From assembly GCF_003585885.1 (NCBI RefSeq), contig NZ_NRHC01000011.1:1-47136 (forward strand): a stretch of 47,136 nt of DNA. The letters are read 5' to 3'. Below, piece after piece: positions 35,958-45,771 of the stretch. The position numbers and the translations under genes were made by a program. Within the stretch, counting starts at the first letter, position 1. The number at the start of each line of letters is the position of its first letter. Source of the DNA: Psittacicella hinzii. GTDB lineage: Bacteria > Pseudomonadota > Gammaproteobacteria > Enterobacterales > Psittacicellaceae. Under the pieces are notes generated by a model. That model ran no database searches. It saw nothing but the letters and a program-made list of their open reading frames with translations, and was not told the DNA's origin.

Positions 35958-36828
35958 TTACAAATGGTAATATATTGTTTCTTTACGTCGAGCGTTTGGG
36001 CTCATTGTCACACACTTATCAACCATTTGCACGTCACTAAAAGCTTTAGCATTTAGATCATGCTTAACCATTTTCTTAAACAAATCCTCGATCTGAAGAA
36101 ATCTGTTATTGATGTAGAAGAAGAGATAAGGCGGTCTTATTAACAGCATTAACTCAAGTAAGTCAGCGTAGTTAAAAGTCTCACCCTCTTCAGAATATCC
36201 CTCTAGGTTAGTGCCTATATAAGGGGGGTCTAATAAAAACACCACTTTGTCATGTTGGTATTCTTTAGCGGTTAATAATTCTTTGTAATCACAGTGGACT
36301 ACTTCAATACCGTCTAAATAATCCTCACAAAGTTCAATTTGTTTTTGTGGCACACGGTAATACAGGCAGTTAATGTATTTTAAAAATTGCTCTTTATTTA
36401 AGGCAATGTTGCCCGAATAAAGAAACCAAGCAGACAGGAAGCGGTAGTTTACCCCCCCCCCCATTAACTTCTTGATTATTAAGCCAATTTTTAATTTCTG
36501 ATAGGATGTTCTTATCGTCTAATTTACCCATTCTACTAGGTTTATTCTCTCCGATAATTCTGGTAATGTCAGACCAATTTGACCTTGCCACTGAAATATT
36601 AGCTAGCTCATTTGTATAATGATCGAAGTCGTTATATACCACTTTAGCTTCTGGAAACCAACGCTTAGCGTTGTGTGCTAACAATCCAGTGCCACCAAAT
36701 AGATCAACTATTGTGTAACCAGCACCGTCGGAGTTAGAAATAACCTTTTGTAAAAATGCCTTTACATCTTTTAAGAAATAGCGCTTTTGCCCAAAGTATG
36801 GCACAGGCGCCTTGTTGTAAATCTTCAT
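35958..36828 (-). CDS. D12-class adenine methyltransferase, frame interrupted at an 11-G tract (phase-variable)
   Basis: Two overlapping frames (36828-36394 and 36464-35958) together match the intact paralogue next door along its length. The first half has APVPYFGQKRYFL and the SAM motif VDLFGGTGLLAHNAKR; the second has the catalytic FLLDPPYIGTNLEGYS. The break lies at a run of 11 G on the minus strand (36452-36462). With 10 G the frames join as NGGGVNYRFLSAWFL, corresponding to SLNFRFLSCWFL in the paralogue, and give about 289 residues. As sequenced the product stops shortly after the tract. The ATG at 36828 is chosen by alignment to its paralogues. N6-adenine methylation is expected; the target is unknown. 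Confidence 0.85.
36452..36462 (-). repeat. 11-G homopolymer in a methyltransferase gene
   Basis: Eleven consecutive C on the plus strand (G on the coding strand), inside the region encoding a Gly run. Such tracts slip during replication. Loss of one base restores the full frame; the present length truncates it. Confidence 0.95.
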
Positions 36829-36845
36829 ATCTAACAAAAATATTT

Positions 36846-37718
36846 TTATAAATGGTAGTAGATGCTCTCCTTTCTACTTGCAGATACATTTAAACCTACA
36901 TCTCTATGTAACATTTGCATATAACGAAATGCTTTAGCATTTAGATTTTGCTCTAGCATTTTCTTTGTAAGGTCTTCTATCTGTAATAACTGATTGTTAA
37001 TGTAGAAAAGCATATAAGGCGGTCTAATTAGCGTCATGAGCATAAGCATGTCTGCGTAATTAAATTCTCGACCTTGTTGAGAGTATCCTTTTAAGTTAGT
37101 GCCAAGATATGGCGGATCTAATAAGAAAATTACTTTATCCTTTTTAAATTCTTCTTTGTTTAAAATCTCTCTGAAGTCACATTGCACTATCTCAAGCCCC
37201 TCAAGGTATCCCGTGCAAGGATTAATTTGCTTTTGCGGGATACCATGATAGAGATCATTTAGATGATACAAGAATTCTTCTTTGTCTCTTGCAATACGAC
37301 CGGAGAATAAAAACCAACAAGAAAGAAAACGAAAGTTTAAACTACTCTCATCTTTAAGAGATTGATTATTAATATAATCTCTAATATCTGATAGGACTTT
37401 ACTATCGGTAATTTTCTCTTTATGTTTATAAGTTTTACCTTTTAAAATCTCTTTGAGATCTAACCAATTCTGCATGGCGACTGGTATTTTCTCCACCTCT
37501 TTAGCATAGTTATCAAAATCGTTGTAGATAACTCTAGCATTAGGATAGAGACGTTTTGCATTGTGAGCTAATAAACCTGAACCTCCAAAGAGGTCAATAA
37601 TGGTATAGCCGTCACCTTTAGCGTTGCCTATTGCTTTCTCTAAAAAGGATTTTAAATCTTGTAGAAAGTAGCGCTTTTGTCCATGAAATGGTACTGGCGC
37701 CTTGCTATAAGTTTTCAT
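36846..37718 (-). CDS. D12-class adenine-specific DNA methyltransferase, intact
   Basis: 290 residues, complete alpha-type order: N-terminal APVPFHGQKRYFL, SAM site IDLFGGSGLLAHNAKRLYP, then a target-recognition region, catalytic FLLDPPYLGTNLKGYS at about 200, and a C-terminal ASRKESIYYHL. Dam-like phage enzymes methylate adenine and protect against host restriction or time packaging. At the place where its neighbour has a G tract this one encodes KDESSLNF without a homopolymer, so it is stably on. 17 bases separate it from the phase-variable copy. No strong ribosome site is visible. Confidence 0.88.
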   Translation of the reverse strand: MKTYSKAPVPFHGQKRYFLQDLKSFLEKAIGNAKGDGYTIIDLFGGSGLLAHNAKRLYPNARVIYNDFDNYAKEVEKIPVAMQNWLDLKEILKGKTYKHKEKITDSKVLSDIRDYINNQSLKDESSLNFRFLSCWFLFSGRIARDKEEFLYHLNDLYHGIPQKQINPCTGYLEGLEIVQCDFREILNKEEFKKDKVIFLLDPPYLGTNLKGYSQQGREFNYADMLMLMTLIRPPYMLFYINNQLLQIEDLTKKMLEQNLNAKAFRYMQMLHRDVGLNVSASRKESIYYHL

Positions 37719-39623: not shown

Positions 39624-40451
39624 CTATGAATTATCTATCATAATATCATCGTAATACCCCCCCCCATGGGTAGATCCAAACCCCTTGTATGTGTTAAAAT
39701 CACGCAGTTGTTCGCAATCTATTGGGTACTTACCTAAAGCAATCATTAATTGAGCGTAGTTGAATTTTGAAGAGCCAAACATTATGAACTTATTTTTATT
39801 TTGAGTAATTAAGCTAATTAGCTTAACTAGATCCTCAATATTAAACTCACTCTTATAGGCGCTCTGACTTGTGAAAATATAAGGCGGGTCAATAATGAAC
39901 ATAACTTTTGAATACTCTTTATATTGCTCAATTAGTTCATCGTAATTTTGTCTGGTAATTTCTAAACCGTCTAAGTACTCGTATGCACTATAATTACCTG
40001 ACGTAATTACATTAAAAAATGCGTTCTTTTCAATATGCTCCCACGTAGTGGCGTTAATACTACTAAATAGTAAATTAGCGCCTAATGTAGGTATATCTAG
40101 ATAACCGTCGAAGTTCTTAATCTTATTGATAATCTCATCTTTATAATCGTCTAACCTTTGCTTAAAAGGCACCACATTGTGGTAAGTAGAATAAAGATCT
40201 TTTATCAATCTGTTTGTGTCTTCTATATGTAACAAACGCTCTTCATAGTTATCGAAGTCATTGTAAATAACTTTAGCGTTTGGTTTTAGACGTTTAGCAA
40301 TGTGAGCTAATAAACCAGAACCTCCAAAAAGGTCAACTATAATCCAATCTTGACCTTGGTCAGGTATCTTGTTTAATGCAAGCTTAAAATTATCTAACAT
40401 TCTCCTCTTTTGCCCTGTAAAGGGTAAAGGAGCCTTATTGTAAATCTTCAT
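39624..40451 (-). CDS. third D12-class adenine methyltransferase, with a 9-G tract near its end
   Basis: 275 residues. The N-terminal APLPFTGQKRRML and SAM site VDLFGGSGLLAHIAKR match the other two copies; the catalytic motif is FIIDPPYIFTSQSAYK. It is more divergent in the target-recognition region (about 70-150), suggesting another target or strength. Near the C-terminus the frame passes through nine G (39657-39665, encoding GSTHGGGYYDD); length change there would replace only the last nine residues. As sequenced it is intact. It begins the block that contains the lysis genes. Confidence 0.87.
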   Translation of the reverse strand: MKIYNKAPLPFTGQKRRMLDNFKLALNKIPDQGQDWIIVDLFGGSGLLAHIAKRLKPNAKVIYNDFDNYEERLLHIEDTNRLIKDLYSTYHNVVPFKQRLDDYKDEIINKIKNFDGYLDIPTLGANLLFSSINATTWEHIEKNAFFNVITSGNYSAYEYLDGLEITRQNYDELIEQYKEYSKVMFIIDPPYIFTSQSAYKSEFNIEDLVKLISLITQNKNKFIMFGSSKFNYAQLMIALGKYPIDCEQLRDFNTYKGFGSTHGGGYYDDIMIDNS

Positions 40452-40490
40452 TATGTTTGTTACTAATAAGCTAAAGCTTCGTTTGTTGAT
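40452..40490. other. start-proximal flank of the third methyltransferase
   Basis: Short non-coding run between the methyltransferase ATG and the repeat array. It contains AGCTAAAGCTT. No Shine-Dalgarno precedes the ATG. Confidence 0.3.
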
Positions 40491-40730
40491 TTGTAATTTA
40501 TTTTTTTTATTTTGTTTACAAATTTGTAATTTATTTTTTTTTACTAATTTGTAATTTATTTTTTAGACTAAGTTTATGATTTGTAATTTATTTATTTTAA
40601 ACTTAGTTTATTGATTTTTATTTCTTTTTAGCTTCGTTTGAAAGTTTGTAATTTATTTTTTTAGATTTCGTTTGCAAATTTGTAATTTATTTTTTAAATT
40701 TCATTTAGAAATTTGTAATTTATTTTTTAG
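40491..40730. repeat. AT-rich iteron-like array, about 33-bp period
   Basis: Seven copies of TTGTAATTTATTT(T) begin at about 40491, 40524, 40549, 40581, 40646, 40680 and 40713, with a degenerate one near 40611. Most intervals are 30-34 bp, about three helical turns, with A/T tracts in phase. It lies upstream of the methyltransferase and next to inverted DnaA boxes, so it looks like an origin-type iteron or curved-DNA array rather than coding sequence. Confidence 0.8.
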
Positions 40731-40934: not shown

Positions 40935-41567
40935 TTAAGATTTCTTTTTAGTGTTTACTTTCATAGAGTGATCCAATTTAAAACGCTCTTCAAGTTTTAA
41001 AAGTTTACCCTCTGTATAAGCTTTAAGTTTTACTTTCATCTCTTTTGTAAGAGGGCGATAGTTTGCAACTTTAGCAGGGGCTTTTTTATTAGCTTTAGCT
41101 TTAGCTTTGCTAGCGCTCTTTGTATTTTCTTCTTTACTTATGGTTGCAACTTTAGTGATTTGAACGAAGCACTGGGCGGGTTTAGTCTTATCGATGATAT
41201 TTTCTATCTTGTAAATCGATAAACGAATAACTTGACTATCATCACACCATACACCTGCCTTGGTCATAGTATCGAAAAGCGTCTTAGTATAGGTATCGAA
41301 AAGCGTCTTAGTATAGTTATCTATATCTCTTCTAGTGTTATCACTTGGAGATAAGATAATATTGACTGCATATCTATTGTCTGGAATAGGCTCCTCCCAG
41401 AGTTGTTCTCTCATCTGTTTACGGATAAGAAAAATATGCTTATTTCTGAATGCTCTATATATAGGAGTAATTGCCCTATCTTTTTGTTTAGTCCCTTTTT
41501 TACCACGTGGACTTCGATAGATATACATCTGATTAGCAGTAACAGGGAAATCTAGCGTTAATAACAT
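40935..41567 (-). CDS. RusA-family Holliday junction resolvase
   Basis: 210 residues. Catalytic acidic residues: RRDIDNYTK (Asp pair) and GVWCDDSQV (DD) of the RusA fold, which resolves four-way junctions before packaging. Between them an 8-residue unit YTKTLFDT occurs twice in tandem, from a 24-bp DNA duplication at 41270-41317. The last 70 residues are a Lys/Ala-rich tail absent from E. coli RusA (120 residues). The ATG follows the terminator of the upstream RNA unit by 18 bases and has no Shine-Dalgarno, so expression should depend on read-through. Confidence 0.82.
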   Translation of the reverse strand: MLLTLDFPVTANQMYIYRSPRGKKGTKQKDRAITPIYRAFRNKHIFLIRKQMREQLWEEPIPDNRYAVNIILSPSDNTRRDIDNYTKTLFDTYTKTLFDTMTKAGVWCDDSQVIRLSIYKIENIIDKTKPAQCFVQITKVATISKEENTKSASKAKAKANKKAPAKVANYRPLTKEMKVKLKAYTEGKLLKLEERFKLDHSMKVNTKKKS

Positions 41568-41584: not shown

Positions 41585-41781
41585 CAAAAAACGGCTTACC
41601 GTTGTGCGATTAACACAAAGGTAAGCCGTTTTTTAATAACCTGTTTGTGAGACATTTAGAAGTCTTTTAAATAGCCAGAATTAAACTTGGGAGTCCCAAG
41701 CTTAACCTGACAGGTACTTCTACATTGGAAAATAATATTATAAATCAATAGAAAAATTATAAAACCATTATACTATCTTTC
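41585..41781 (-). ncRNA. candidate sRNA / leader RNA unit 1
   Basis: About 197 nt from a near-consensus minus-strand promoter to a strong terminator. It contains the stem TTAAGCTTGGG / CCCAAGTTTAA (41681-41705), matching the central stem of unit 4. The one non-Watson-Crick pair there is G-U on the minus strand but A-C on the plus strand, supporting minus-strand RNA. No ribosome site with an open frame is apparent. It ends just before rusA, so it may be a separate RNA or the leader of the late transcript. Confidence 0.6.
41586..41634 (-). terminator. terminator of RNA unit 1
   Basis: Perfect 15-bp stem (41586-41600 with 41620-41634) that includes the flanking A and T runs; the core is CGGCTTACC / GGTAAGCCG. 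The loop contains TGTGTTA on the minus strand, shared with the other three units. Confidence 0.92.
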
Positions 41782-41787
41782 TTTTTT

Positions 41788-41816
41788 AATATTATCATAT
41801 TCTGACAACTCTGTCA
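41788..41816 (-). promoter_or_regulatory. promoter of RNA unit 1
   Basis: On the minus strand TTGACA (41816-41811), a 17-base spacer, and TAATAT (41793-41788). This is a near-perfect sigma-70 promoter directed toward rusA and the late genes. Confidence 0.85.
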
Positions 41817-41947
41817 ATACGAAATTTAAACTTTTTTATACTTTTTTTAACAACCTCATACGTTGTAACCTAATAACAGTTTCTTATGAAGTAATGAATG
41901 ATTTAATAGCTCTGAAGTAATCAGAACAAGTCAGAATTATTTAAACC

Positions 41948-41989
41948 AAAAAAAACGGCTTAAATGTGCTACTAACACATTTAAGACCG
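41948..41989 (-). terminator. terminator of RNA unit 2
   Basis: Minus strand: CGGTCTTAAATGTG and CACATTTAAGCCG pair with a single bulged base, followed by eight T. The loop includes TGTTAGTA. Confidence 0.88.
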
Positions 41990-42143
41990 GAAGGACTTGA
42001 GAATTGTATGTAAAAAATTAAGAAAACAATGAATTTGAATAAAAATACTTCAAAGTATAAATTGATCAAAATGAATGCCCATAAAATTAAGAATAACCTT
42101 ATGATAAAGATAAGGAGAGTTTGATTTATAACTATGAAGATAA
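41948..42143 (-). ncRNA. candidate RNA unit 2
   Basis: Runs from a TATAAT at 42154-42149 on the minus strand, without a good -35, to terminator 2. It contains a CCTTAT / ATAAGG hairpin but not the central stem of units 1 and 4. The terminator and flank are closely related to unit 3 (GTCAGAA-TATTTAA-CC before the A run on the plus strand). The promoter is uncertain. Confidence 0.35.
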
Positions 42144-42264
42144 TACTTATTATATCCAATTTTTAATATCAGTTTAAAGTTTTTAATGATATTTAGACAA
42201 AATATCCAAGCGTTGTGTAAGTTTATTTTTAAAGGTTCAGAAATGGTCAGAAATATTTAAGCCT

Positions 42265-42302
42265 AAAAAAAGTCCTAAAAGTGTTATTAACACATTTAAG
42301 AC
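42265..42302 (-). terminator. terminator of RNA unit 3
   Basis: Minus strand: GTCTTAAATGTG pairs with CACTTTTAGGAC (one U-G pair and one mismatch), then seven T. The loop holds TTAATAA. Confidence 0.82.
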
Positions 42303-42387
42303 CGATTAGGAAATTTTTAGGGAATTTAAAACTTAAAAAATATAATAACTAAGAGAACTTAATTTAAATTTTCATTTGATAGTAATC
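42265..42387 (-). ncRNA. candidate RNA unit 3
   Basis: Possible transcript of about 120 nt between a TATAAT at 42399-42394 (minus strand, poor -35) and terminator 3. It could equally be read-through sequence from unit 4. Sequence downstream of the hairpin is homologous to unit 2. Confidence 0.3.
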
Positions 42388-42439
42388 CCTTATATTATAT
42401 TAAATTTAAAATTTAAAGGGGAAAGTTTTTATGATTTTT

Positions 42440-42666
42440 AGACAAAAAACGACCTACCGTCGTGTCTTAACACAATGGTAAGTCGTTTTAGATTAGTACT
42501 TTAATAAAAGTTCTCTTTACTATCCCATACTGCATTGCTTAGTTTAAGCTTGAGTATCTCAAGCCTAAACTCAAGAAGTATGTTAGTAAAAGAATTCTTA
42601 CACTTCACTAAAAAATATAAACAGAGGTTTTAATATACCATTATGGAGATAAATCAATATTAAACC
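42440..42666 (-). ncRNA. candidate sRNA / leader RNA unit 4
   Basis: About 227 nt from promoter 42673-42701 to terminator 4. A 14-bp central stem (42541-42554 with 42558-42571) has a 3-nt loop; its single irregular pair is G-U on the minus strand. An outer CATACT / AGTATG stem (42526-42531, 42577-42582) encloses it. The central stem and terminator match unit 1 in sequence and structure although the rest diverges, as expected for an RNA family. Confidence 0.6.
42444..42489 (-). terminator. terminator of RNA unit 4
   Basis: Minus strand AAAACGACTTACC / GGTAGGTCGTTTT forms 13 pairs including one U-G (a C-A mismatch on the other strand), followed by T residues. The same loop motif TGTGTTA occurs as in unit 1. 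Confidence 0.9.
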
Positions 42667-42672
42667 ATTACT

Positions 42673-42701
42673 AGAATAGCAAATTTATGTTTGCTTGTCA
42701 A
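42673..42701 (-). promoter_or_regulatory. promoter of RNA unit 4
   Basis: On the minus strand TTGACA (42701-42696), a 17-base spacer, and TATTCT (42678-42673). Strong sigma-70 match, directed left into the unit array. Confidence 0.82.
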
Positions 42702-43082
42702 CTCCTAATAATGTTATTTTTGTTTCAAAGCATGTGGGTGTTATGTTTTAGTTTCTTGTATCGATTGCTCTTGTTTATTAGCAAAGCTAGCTTAACAGTA
42801 ATAGCTTTAGCCCTTAAACTATAAGTTAGCTACTAATCTACTTTAGCATGTATTTACATGCTTAGCACAAGCTAAAGAAGTGTTATTAACCCTTGAAGTA
42901 TTATTATAGTAACTTTAGCTCTTTAGCGTTTTTATGAAAACTTTAGCACTGTTTGCGCTTCGCGCAATATGTAGCTTATTTGAGGTTTGCTTTCTAGTAA
43001 TCCTATTAATATAACTGGAGCTTAGTTTTTAAAGTTGCCAATCCAGCAATTTAGTCTGATCTTTGCTTGCCAAAAAATAGGC
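42702..43082. other. gene-free region upstream of RNA unit 4 with repeated CTTTAGC
   Basis: No gene seen. ACTTTAGC occurs at 42840-42847, 42912-42919 and 42940-42947, with CTTTAGC also at about 42815 and 42921. A palindrome AGCATGT-ATTT-ACATGCT lies at 42845-42862, and GCGCTTCGCGC near 42955. These could be regulator binding sites upstream of the sRNA promoter. Confidence 0.4.
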
Positions 43083-43130
43083 AAAAAAAGCCTCCCCCCT
43101 CCTCCGGACTTGAGAAAAGAAAAGGCTTTT
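43083..43130 (-). terminator. terminator downstream of ssb
   Basis: On the minus strand AAAAGCCT pairs with AGGCTTTT over a long loop with G-rich and CTT-rich sides that can pair further, then the T run continues to seven. Likely end of the ssb transcript. Confidence 0.55.
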
Positions 43131-43691
43131 ATAACGTCTCGGTCACTTAAAAAACGGCTCTGAATTAAAAGCCCTCAAATTCTCCTACATTTTACCACAA
43201 TTATCAGAGGATTAGCTCGATATCAGGCAGATTTCTCGAACTAATCGGTATCTAATTGATTGGGTAAAATTTTAGATCATAAGATACGCTTTTAATTAGT
43301 GACCGTTTATTAATTAAACGAAACAAGTCACAATCAAAACTATAAAATAAAGGTTTACAATGAGGCAAAAATTAAATCAATACTAGCTAACATTTAGTTA
43401 GCAATTTTAATCCCTAAAGAAGAACTTTTAAATATCAACTTACTCCCCTCGAATTTACTCCCCTCATGTTGTTTGTTAAAAAATTTTCTTCTGCATAAAA
43501 AAGCATAAGCATGTTACTAGGTTATTTATTTTTAGAGAGACCCATTAGGAGAAACGGAACTATAAAAAATCCACGAAATCGTTCTGTAACATGCTTAAAC
43601 TTCAAAATATTACTAAATAAGTAACTGTATTATCCAAACAACAAAGTATTAAGAAAAGAACTAAGAGTAAATTGAAGAAGCAAAATTGTAT
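43131..43691. other. gene-free trailer of ssb with inverted and direct repeats
   Basis: No convincing gene. It contains ATTAGCTCGA (43211-43220) / TCGAACTAAT (43236-43245), two copies of TTACTCCCCTC 15 bp apart (43440-43465), and the long inverted repeat described at 43507-43596. Confidence 0.4.
43507..43596. repeat. structured element with perfect 11-bp closing stem
   Basis: AAGCATGTTAC (43507-43517) is perfectly complementary to GTAACATGCTT (43586-43596). Inside, ACGGAAC and GTTCTGT can extend pairing with one wobble. The roughly 90-nt element could be a folded RNA in the ssb trailer or a paired protein site. No family was recognised. Confidence 0.45.
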
Positions 43692-44678
43692 TTAAAAAGG
43701 CATATCATCGTCTGGTATGCTCGTCTGTTCATCAGAGCGTCCAGAACTGAAATCATTTGCAACCCTAGCGCCATTATTTACATGTCGGCTCTGTGGTTGC
43801 GGAGGGGTTGGCTCGTACGGATTGCTTGCGCTTGTAGGAGCTTTAGCCACCTCGTTTGTAGTGGTTATATGAGCGCCAGAATATTTATCCTTTAGCTCTT
43901 CTAACCCTTTACGTAGATCGTAATCTGATCCTACGTTATTGAAACCATTTGGTTGGTTTGAAAATCCAGGGTTAGGATTAAATCCTTGCCCTTGGTTGTT
44001 GATACTCGTCTGAATATTATTATTTTGGTTTTGAGTAAAACCATTATTATTGTTATAACCAGAGTTATTACTAAAGCCTTGACTTTGTGAACTACCCACT
44101 TGTTGTTGGTTACTAAAGCCTTGGTTCTGATTAAACCCTGAATTATAATTGGAACTCGTCTGAATACTATTATTAAAACCTTGACCTTGGTTATTAAAAC
44201 TTTGGTTTTGGTTATTATTAAATCCTTGGTTGTTAAAACCTTGATTTTGATTTTTGAAGCCTTGGTTATTGTTATAACCTTGGCCGTTACCGTTCGAATA
44301 CTGATTAAGAAGATCGTTAACTGCTTCTATAGATTTTAAGATAGCATTACGACCTGTTACTGTGTAAAAAATATCACTCGCTGTGATATTCTTACTTACT
44401 TTCTGAATACCATTTTTATCGATATAGTCCTTAAACGAACAATCGCCTATAATGACAACTTCACAACCTTTAGCTAAAGCTTTACATCTTTCAACTATGT
44501 TCGGTTTATAGCAGACCACATTGTACCACTCAACGAACTCGGTAACCCATTGATTGCTACTTTGATCAAAAGAGACCTGATTATAAGCAACGCTTAAAGT
44601 TACAAACTCATTGCCACCTTGGCGTGAATTGTAAAATGTTGGATCTTGACCTAATCGACCTTTAAATATAATTTGCAT
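43692..44678 (-). CDS. ssb: single-stranded DNA-binding protein with long Asn/Gln/Gly linker
   Basis: 328 residues. OB fold at 1-110 (MQIIFKGRLGQDPTFYNS, VSFDQSSNQWVTEFVEWYNVV, CEVVIIGDCSFKDYIDKNG). Then about 130 residues of repeated NQGFNN-type units, and the acidic tip DDDMPF that recruits repair and replication partners. E. coli SSB has 178 residues, so the disordered linker is more than twice as long. AAGGA precedes the ATG, and a consensus promoter lies upstream. A phage copy would coat replicating DNA and work with RusA. Confidence 0.92.
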   Translation of the reverse strand: MQIIFKGRLGQDPTFYNSRQGGNEFVTLSVAYNQVSFDQSSNQWVTEFVEWYNVVCYKPNIVERCKALAKGCEVVIIGDCSFKDYIDKNGIQKVSKNITASDIFYTVTGRNAILKSIEAVNDLLNQYSNGNGQGYNNNQGFKNQNQGFNNQGFNNNQNQSFNNQGQGFNNSIQTSSNYNSGFNQNQGFSNQQQVGSSQSQGFSNNSGYNNNNGFTQNQNNNIQTSINNQGQGFNPNPGFSNQPNGFNNVGSDYDLRKGLEELKDKYSGAHITTTNEVAKAPTSASNPYEPTPPQPQSRHVNNGARVANDFSSGRSDEQTSIPDDDMPF

Positions 44679-44865: not shown

Positions 44866-44950
44866 AATTATATTTTCACAGAAAAACAGAAAAGTAAATA
44901 TAAAATTTTAATCTTATTATCAAATGTTTAAAAATAAAAAATTATTCTTT

Positions 44951-45240
44951 TTTATCAAGGGTAAGGATATTCTATAAACTCTTAAAATTAAATTTCATAA
45001 GCAAATATTAAGTTTAGAAATTAATTTATTTTTGACAAGGGTAAGAATATCCTATTACTATTAAAATTAAATTTCATAAGCAAATATTAAGTTTAGAAAA
45101 TTAATTTTTTTTTGACATGGGGAAGAATATTCTACTAACTCTTAAAATTAAATTTCATAAGCAAATATTAAGTTTAGAAAATTAATTTTTTTTTGACATG
45201 GGGAAGAATATTCTACTAACTCTTAAAATTAAATTTCATA
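44951..45240. repeat. 80-bp direct repeat array
   Basis: Units begin at 44951, 45031, 45111 and 45192 (last one partial, to about 45240). Each holds a TTGACA-A/T-GGG-K-AAG-AATAT head, then TTAAAATTAAATTTCATAAGC and a TTAAGTTTAGAAA tail. Units 3 and 4 are almost identical; the first reads TTATCA in the head. No gene runs through them. Confidence 0.9.
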
Positions 45241-45735
45241 AAAAAATGTATAAGATTATAATTTAATTCTTTTCTGTCAGGAGTATAACAGTTAACAATT
45301 GGTTTTTATTTTATATTAGAAAATCTCTAAATGTTAAAAATGTTAAAAATTGTTAATTGTAAATAAATTAAGGATAATTAAGGATATACCCCCCTTACAA
45401 CAGAAAATTAATTTGAAAGTTTAATTTTCTATAGCGAACCTAATTGTTTTGGAATAGAACGTATATTCTCACCCTTGTCAAGGATAAATTAATTTCTTTT
45501 TTACTTTAATAGCGAAGCTAGTTTTAATAAAAAGTAAATTAATCTTTAAATTTTAATATTCTTAAATTAAGGGCAATATTACTATAATTAAGAGTAAGAC
45601 TTTATCCTTGTCAAAAATAAATTATTTTAAATATTTAAATTAAAATCGTAAGAAAAATTCAAATTAATTTTTTCAGATTTTAGCATACTTTTCATTTTTT
45701 TTCAGTTATTTTTAAATTTTTATAAAAAATAGTTA
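45241..45735. repeat. inverted copies of the array head and AT-rich spacer
   Basis: Gene-free. The repeat head recurs in inverse orientation at 45451-45496 (core CCCTTGTCAA at 45472-45481) and at 45598-45630 (CCTTGTCAAA). A GTTAACAATT / AATTGTTAAT pair lies near 45290-45360. The head sequences therefore face each other across about 200-400 bp. Confidence 0.65.
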
Positions 45736-45771
45736 TTTTACTTTAGCTTTGTTTTTTACTTTAGCATTGTT
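45736..45771. repeat. two 18-bp tandem repeats with ACTTTAGC
   Basis: TTTTACTTTAGC-T/A-TTGTT occurs at 45736-45753 and 45754-45771. A near-palindrome TTTACTAAAGTAAA lies at about 45848-45861. The ACTTTAGC core is the one seen upstream of RNA unit 4. Candidate operators for the regulator gene at 46039. Confidence 0.45.

Follow-up and report, generated by a model that had tools for sequence, protein, structure and literature searches.

The window analysed here is a 47,136-nucleotide (nt) stretch, contig C13 of the 2.3 Mb draft genome of a member of Psittacicella, a bird-associated bacterium. An integrated prophage extends from an integrase gene near 9.1 kb to the end of the contig, which cuts it, and its minus strand carries the structural, packaging and lysis genes. 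A 2.1 kb non-coding gap separates the early gene ssb from rusA on this strand, and it holds an array of terminator-ended units that is the subject of this report. Downstream of rusA, and oriented as it is, lie late genes (holin, endolysin, terminase). Between ssb and rusA the frames are of low complexity, A+T-rich and at most 74 amino acids long, which bears out the claim of an original prediction for this DNA that no coding gene explains the array. A 72-amino-acid hydrophobic frame with a TTG start, which crosses the second terminator and has no visible ribosome site, was considered as a coding remnant and rejected. A search for tRNA and tmRNA genes returned none; Rfam gave no match in the window above the gathering score, and a permissive search yielded only sub-threshold microRNA-like hairpin matches.

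The array contains four minus-strand terminators, T1 to T4, numbered from the rusA side (Table 1). Each combines a stable hairpin with a U tract, as expected of intrinsic (Rho-independent) terminators, and the stem of T3 is the weakest. Sequence alignment groups them into two homologous pairs, T1 with T4 and T2 with T3. All four carry the motif TGTGTTA at the loop-proximal end of the stem. The sites, the motif and the pairing had been proposed in the original prediction; its description of TGTGTTA as a loop motif is correct only in part, since the word lies partly in the stem. We discarded TGTGTTA as an uptake-signal-like word because it is not specific: 13 further copies are dispersed through the window, and the terminators have it in common via duplication. 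Two more terminator-like hairpins, T5 and T6, follow ssb, and the array may continue upstream to include them. Terminator-like sites number 6 in a stretch of 3 kb, compared with 1.1 +/- 1.0 in shuffled sequence. The stem and T-tract of T1 end so close to the rusA start codon that a promoter cannot fit in between, and expression of rusA must therefore depend on read-through of T1.

Units 1 and 4 are the most elaborate. Their promoters, P1 and P4, were predicted originally; no other sigma70 promoter on the window's minus strand has an exact TTGACA. The two units have in common the -35 hexamer, the 5' boxes TAATGGTTTwATA and TATTGATTTAT, a central hairpin recovered in both by alignment, as anticipated, and the terminator. 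The predicted RNAs fold far better than shuffled sequences. Comparison of the 30 base pairs common to the two units reveals 23 that are unchanged, 5 with a change on one side and 2 with compensatory changes on both sides. The two compensatory pairs lend slight support to the proposal of a functional RNA family, but the sequence base is two copies per unit type, and homologues were found nowhere outside the window. With regard to a Q-binding element, which by definition lies between -35 and -10, only a repeat TTGACAG/TTGTCAG at 9 bp was noted in P1. Downstream of the start sites, -10-like elements occur in both units (TATAAT at about +10 in unit 1, TAATAT in unit 4), in a region so A+T-rich that chance is a likely explanation.

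Units 2 and 3 are built differently. Their flanks are common to both, while their middles of 115-140 nt are unrelated, fold weakly (z-scores of -2.5 and -1.0) and lack the central hairpin. The description of the array as four promoter/hairpin units was therefore overstated, because units 2 and 3 have neither strong promoters nor central hairpins. Since the terminators, a 55-nt block and the elements of units 1 and 4 are homologous, the array probably arose by tandem duplication of cassettes.

Table 1. Features of the ssb-rusA region, listed in the direction of minus-strand transcription
Feature	Position	Strand	Evidence or remark
ssb, early gene upstream of array	43692..44678	-	Pfam SSB 2.1e-11
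T6, short, weaker terminator-like hairpin	43156..43173	-	terminator scan
T5, terminator after ssb, polypyrimidine-polypurine stem	43085..43131	-	19 pairs, 6 of them U-G on minus, none on plus; -23.3 vs -9.7 kcal/mol on plus
P4, TTGACA-17-TATTCT, AGCAAA-6-TTTGCT inverted repeat in spacer	42701-42673	-	promoter scan and sequence
Unit 4 RNA, predicted, ~220 nt	42447..42666	-	fold z -6.45, 0/200 shuffles as good
Unit 4 long imperfect hairpin; central stem C4 at 42540-42571	42490..42610	-	-38.7 kcal/mol, z -5.69
T4	42447..42493	-	18 pairs, -22.9 kcal/mol
55-nt block upstream of unit 3, without convincing promoter	42393..42447	-	73% identical to 42148-42202
T3	42269-42305	-
Cassette 3 (T3 and conserved tail)	42237..42304	-	homology to cassette 2; two G-U pairs on minus, none on plus
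55-nt block upstream of unit 2, weak promoter TTTAAA-18-TATAAT (42178-42149)	42148..42202	-	73% identical to 42393-42447; promoter scan
T2	~41955-41989	-
Cassette 2 (T2 and conserved tail CTGAC..TTCTGA)	41921..41989	-	82.6% identical to cassette 3 over 69 nt, E 1.5e-14
P1, TTGACA-17-TAATAT, TGACA-4-TGTCA inverted repeat over -35	41817-41789	-	promoter scan and sequence
Unit 1 leader RNA, predicted, ~197 nt	41586..41782	-	fold z -7.57, 0/200 shuffles as good
-10-like TATAAT, unit 1 initial transcribed region, ~+10 to +15	41767..41772	-	sequence; position would suit a sigma-dependent pause (role suggested by lambdoid Q literature)
C1, central hairpin of unit 1	41674..41711	-	17 pairs, -19.8 kcal/mol on minus vs -10.9 on plus; common to C4 by alignment
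T1, nearly perfect 21-pair stem, 18 nt before rusA start codon	41586..41634	-	RNAfold -28.1 kcal/mol; 82.1% identical to T4 over 56 nt, E 3e-10
rusA, first gene downstream of array; ATG 18 nt past T1	40935..41567	-	Pfam RusA 3.7e-08, PHROG RusA-like 4e-20

The pairing pattern of the stems favours RNA made from the minus strand. Summed over the six array stems, there are 10 G-U pairs on the minus strand against a single one on the plus; for internal pairs alone the figures are 7 and 1 (one-sided p 0.035), and in the two upstream stems they are 8 and 0. The claim that deviations from perfect pairing appear as G-U on the minus strand and A-C on the plus strand thus stands as a 10:1 bias, with one A-C exception in terminator 4. 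The plus strand folds almost as well (z of -6.1 for unit 1 and -7.1 for unit 4), so the G-U bias gives modest support to minus-strand RNA, and the strand preference rests on the promoters, this bias and the flanking genes together. Folding of both strands, together with the near-perfect palindrome of T1, is what would be expected if the inverted repeats acted as cruciforms or protein sites in a DNA-level element, such as a replication or recombination site or a decayed mobile element. The repeated GCTAAAG motifs of the adjoining non-coding DNA (42780-43000), which recur near 45740 and within the C-terminal extension of rusA, would also suit such an element. The G-U bias, the T-tracts, the polarity of the promoters and the direction of the genes all point instead to minus-strand RNA, and we rank the DNA-level explanation last, as hardly probable.

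To place the array in context, we compared it with related prophages. The search yielded only three: L015 from the genome of the window itself, and the P. hinzii prophages L016 and L017. A holin-based search for more relatives returned only the two known P. hinzii loci from genome contigs and none from IMG/VR, and a rusA search in IMG/VR also returned none. All three relatives have a strong terminator between ssb and rusA (z of -6.40 in L015, -5.24 in L016 and -4.29 in L017), in the same position between the same genes as in the window, whereas the hairpin sequences are unrelated to those of the array. The L015 terminator ends 5 nt before the rusA ATG. At distances of 5 nt in L015 and 18 nt in the window a promoter cannot fit, so read-through must be the route to rusA in both prophages. 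L015 also has a perfect TATAAT, paired with a poor -35 (TTGTAT, 17 bp), about 200 nt before its rusA terminator, a possible parallel to unit 1. The ssb-rusA gaps of L016 and L017, each of about 150 bp, contain a single terminator, and no promoter was called in them. Besides further terminators, the L015 gap contains a SocA/Panacea gene, which indicates that this slot accepts cargo. Further upstream, G+C-rich strong hairpins are present in the leader preceding ssb in all three relatives (L015 6120-6190 and 6248-6524, L016 280-345, L017 7760-7695) and are candidate nascent-RNA control elements.

The single, apparently promoterless terminators of the P. hinzii prophages fit a simpler explanation, in which duplicated terminators end transcription from ssb and shield the late operon from spurious promoters, P1 and P4 being incidental and the RNAs functionless. 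Long symmetric terminator hairpins are also present elsewhere in these genomes, and cassettes 2 and 3, with their weak promoters and unstructured middles, are in keeping with insulation. Two consensus promoters, the leader boxes and a conserved central hairpin exceed those needs, and we consider plain insulation unlikely.

The anatomy of unit 1 resembles that of a phage late leader. Lambda 6S RNA, the terminated leader of pR', is 194 nt long; in unit 1 the order of parts is likewise a promoter, a -10-like TATAAT that may well be fortuitous, a leader of similar length, an intrinsic terminator and, directly after it, the late genes. In the lambdoid phages lambda, 21 and 82, Q loads at a pause brought about by a -10-like element early in the transcribed region (PMC6606751). 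Several features set the array apart from pR'-6S-tR', which is a single cassette: here several lie in tandem after ssb, the first gene is rusA, there is no sequence similarity, and no homologue of the Q families PF06530 or PF03589 was detected in the genus. Among the four Psittacicella genomes, PF06530 gave no match, and what PF03589 matched were fragments below threshold within unrelated frames of great length. PHROG annotation was applied to ten early proteins from prophage L015/L025 and identified none as an antiterminator. The array therefore resembles a late leader in its anatomy, whereas membership of a Q system is not supported. A non-homologous Q-like factor is possible, as is one encoded beyond the contig cut.

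In Shiga-toxin phages, the terminated late leader StxS is a stable, Hfq-bound small RNA (sRNA), and sRNA dyads lie between the late promoter and the lysis genes (PMC7873438). The array is similar in that its terminated leaders could be stable sRNAs and its putative non-coding RNAs cluster between a late promoter and lysis genes. It differs in having no sequence similarity and no established target, and Hfq (PF17209) was not detected in the four Psittacicella genomes, which are incomplete assemblies, although control genomes were positive. ProQ is present in the window host and was found in two of the four genomes; it may serve as partner of the terminated leaders. Because the assemblies are draft, the absences of Q and Hfq are provisional. 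With neither a lambda-type Q nor Hfq detected in the genus, the mechanisms of these systems are not simply transferable. The analogy with HK022 put drawn in the original prediction holds only in that a structured nascent RNA is proposed to influence termination near phage operons: put is an RNA of ~70 nt with two stem-loops located just after the early promoters PL and PR (PMC9378689), whereas the units are ~200 nt long, end in terminators and follow ssb.

Searches for homologues of the units themselves were negative. A distant blastn search against phages and plasmids found none, and the matches in 59 related genomes were weak, scattered and located in A+T-rich DNA. Within the genus, no match to a covariance model of units 1 and 4 rose above noise, and the best ones outside were ordinary hairpins and terminators. 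In IMG/VR, a pattern search with T1/T4 returned 21 contigs, none fitting the model convincingly, and T2/T3 returned zero.

A rival possibility is that the units are stand-alone genes for trans-acting sRNAs, moron cargo in the ssb-rusA slot that would be expressed in the lysogen, stabilised by ProQ and directed against phage or host mRNAs. The strong units each have their own promoter and terminator and fold strongly, the slot bears cargo in L015, the common flanks and unrelated middles of units 2 and 3 are as in diversified sRNAs, and the host has ProQ but no detected Hfq. A candidate target also emerged. Unit 2 RNA (42081-42112, minus strand) is antisense over 30/33 nt (91%) to C28:4079-4111, corresponding to codons 3-13 of a 315-amino-acid open reading frame (ORF). 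This ORF, at C28:4118, adjoins SocA/Panacea-domain genes and was found in no congener, so it is taken as strain-specific. Judged by shuffled queries, a match of at least 42 bits is expected no more than about 0.1 times per genome, and none of 300 shuffles reached 43.6 bits in 73 kb of host DNA. The duplex energy is not decisive (z -4.4 relative to random host pieces), as about two equally good duplexes are expected genome-wide by estimate. The match was found post hoc, and we treat it as a lead rather than a result. The RNAs are conserved in no other genome, and the location of T1 immediately before rusA is left unexplained if the units are free-standing genes; we regard this possibility as a doubtful one, though not a slight one.

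The reading we tentatively prefer, with somewhat less than even confidence, is that the array is a leader/terminator gate on the late operon, similar to lambda pR'-6S-tR' and grown by duplication. P1, together with P4 further upstream and early transcription through ssb, would initiate RNAs that form stable hairpins and terminate at T4, T3, T2 and T1. In the lysogen, short structured RNAs would be made and late mRNA would not. Upon induction, some factor would permit read-through of T1, so that transcription could reach rusA and, beyond it, the genes for lysis and packaging; this factor might be a Q-like protein not homologous to Q, or else an RNA element that acts on RNA polymerase. The gate would have expanded via tandem duplication of terminator cassettes, and its terminated transcripts could act as sRNAs. 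This reading is strengthened by the location of T1 before the rusA ATG and by the strong terminator directly before rusA in all three relatives. On both counts the gating role of leader RNAs put forward in the original prediction gains ground. Also in its favour are the late-leader anatomy of unit 1, the two exact-TTGACA promoters, the lack of called promoters in the L016 and L017 gaps, the co-oriented late genes downstream, the fold scores of units 1 and 4 and the G-U bias.

Several observations weigh against such a gate. Neither of the Q families searched for is present in the four genus genomes, although the prophage runs off the end of the window contig, and both transcription and termination are predicted from sequence. 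Cassettes with promoters are missing from the two P. hinzii relatives, so one terminator is enough for the common function and the additional units call for a different explanation. Expression of rusA could also be met by leaky termination alone. Because the spacer motifs of P1 and P4 differ, the two promoters may answer to different regulators. A bolder version, in which the RNA cassette array replaces Q, the leaders set read-through with ProQ or RNA polymerase, and the released units are sRNAs, with unit 2 silencing the SocA/Panacea-cluster gene, strikes us as very unlikely.

Other features of the prophage lie close to the array. Between ssb and a divergent putative regulator gene, the leader contains 3.8 tandem copies of an 81-nt unit (44938-45241), which are possible repressor or replication sites. 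Within rusA, a 24-nt direct duplication (41269-41321) repeats the motif YTKTLFDT at the conserved IDNY-K-D stretch and may represent a recent in-frame slippage. On its downstream side, an A+T-rich 33-nt tandem repeat of 7.5 copies (40489-40728) separates rusA from a methyltransferase gene. The window prophage has three related methyltransferase-like genes (35958-37718 and 39624-40451), one apparently split into two overlapping frames, and prophage L017 likewise has three.

To our knowledge, the control of late genes has been worked out closely in only a few groups of phages, for the most part lambdoid ones that have Q and Hfq-bound leader RNAs. What is new here looks like a local variant of the familiar phage leader-RNA/terminator gate, built from sequences not found elsewhere. 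A terminator before rusA has been kept in four prophages despite complete sequence turnover, in hosts where neither Q nor Hfq was detected, which would make this a simple system in which to ask what opens the gate. The duplicated cassettes, whose flanks are constant while their middles vary, also illustrate a way in which leader RNAs could give rise to prophage sRNAs.
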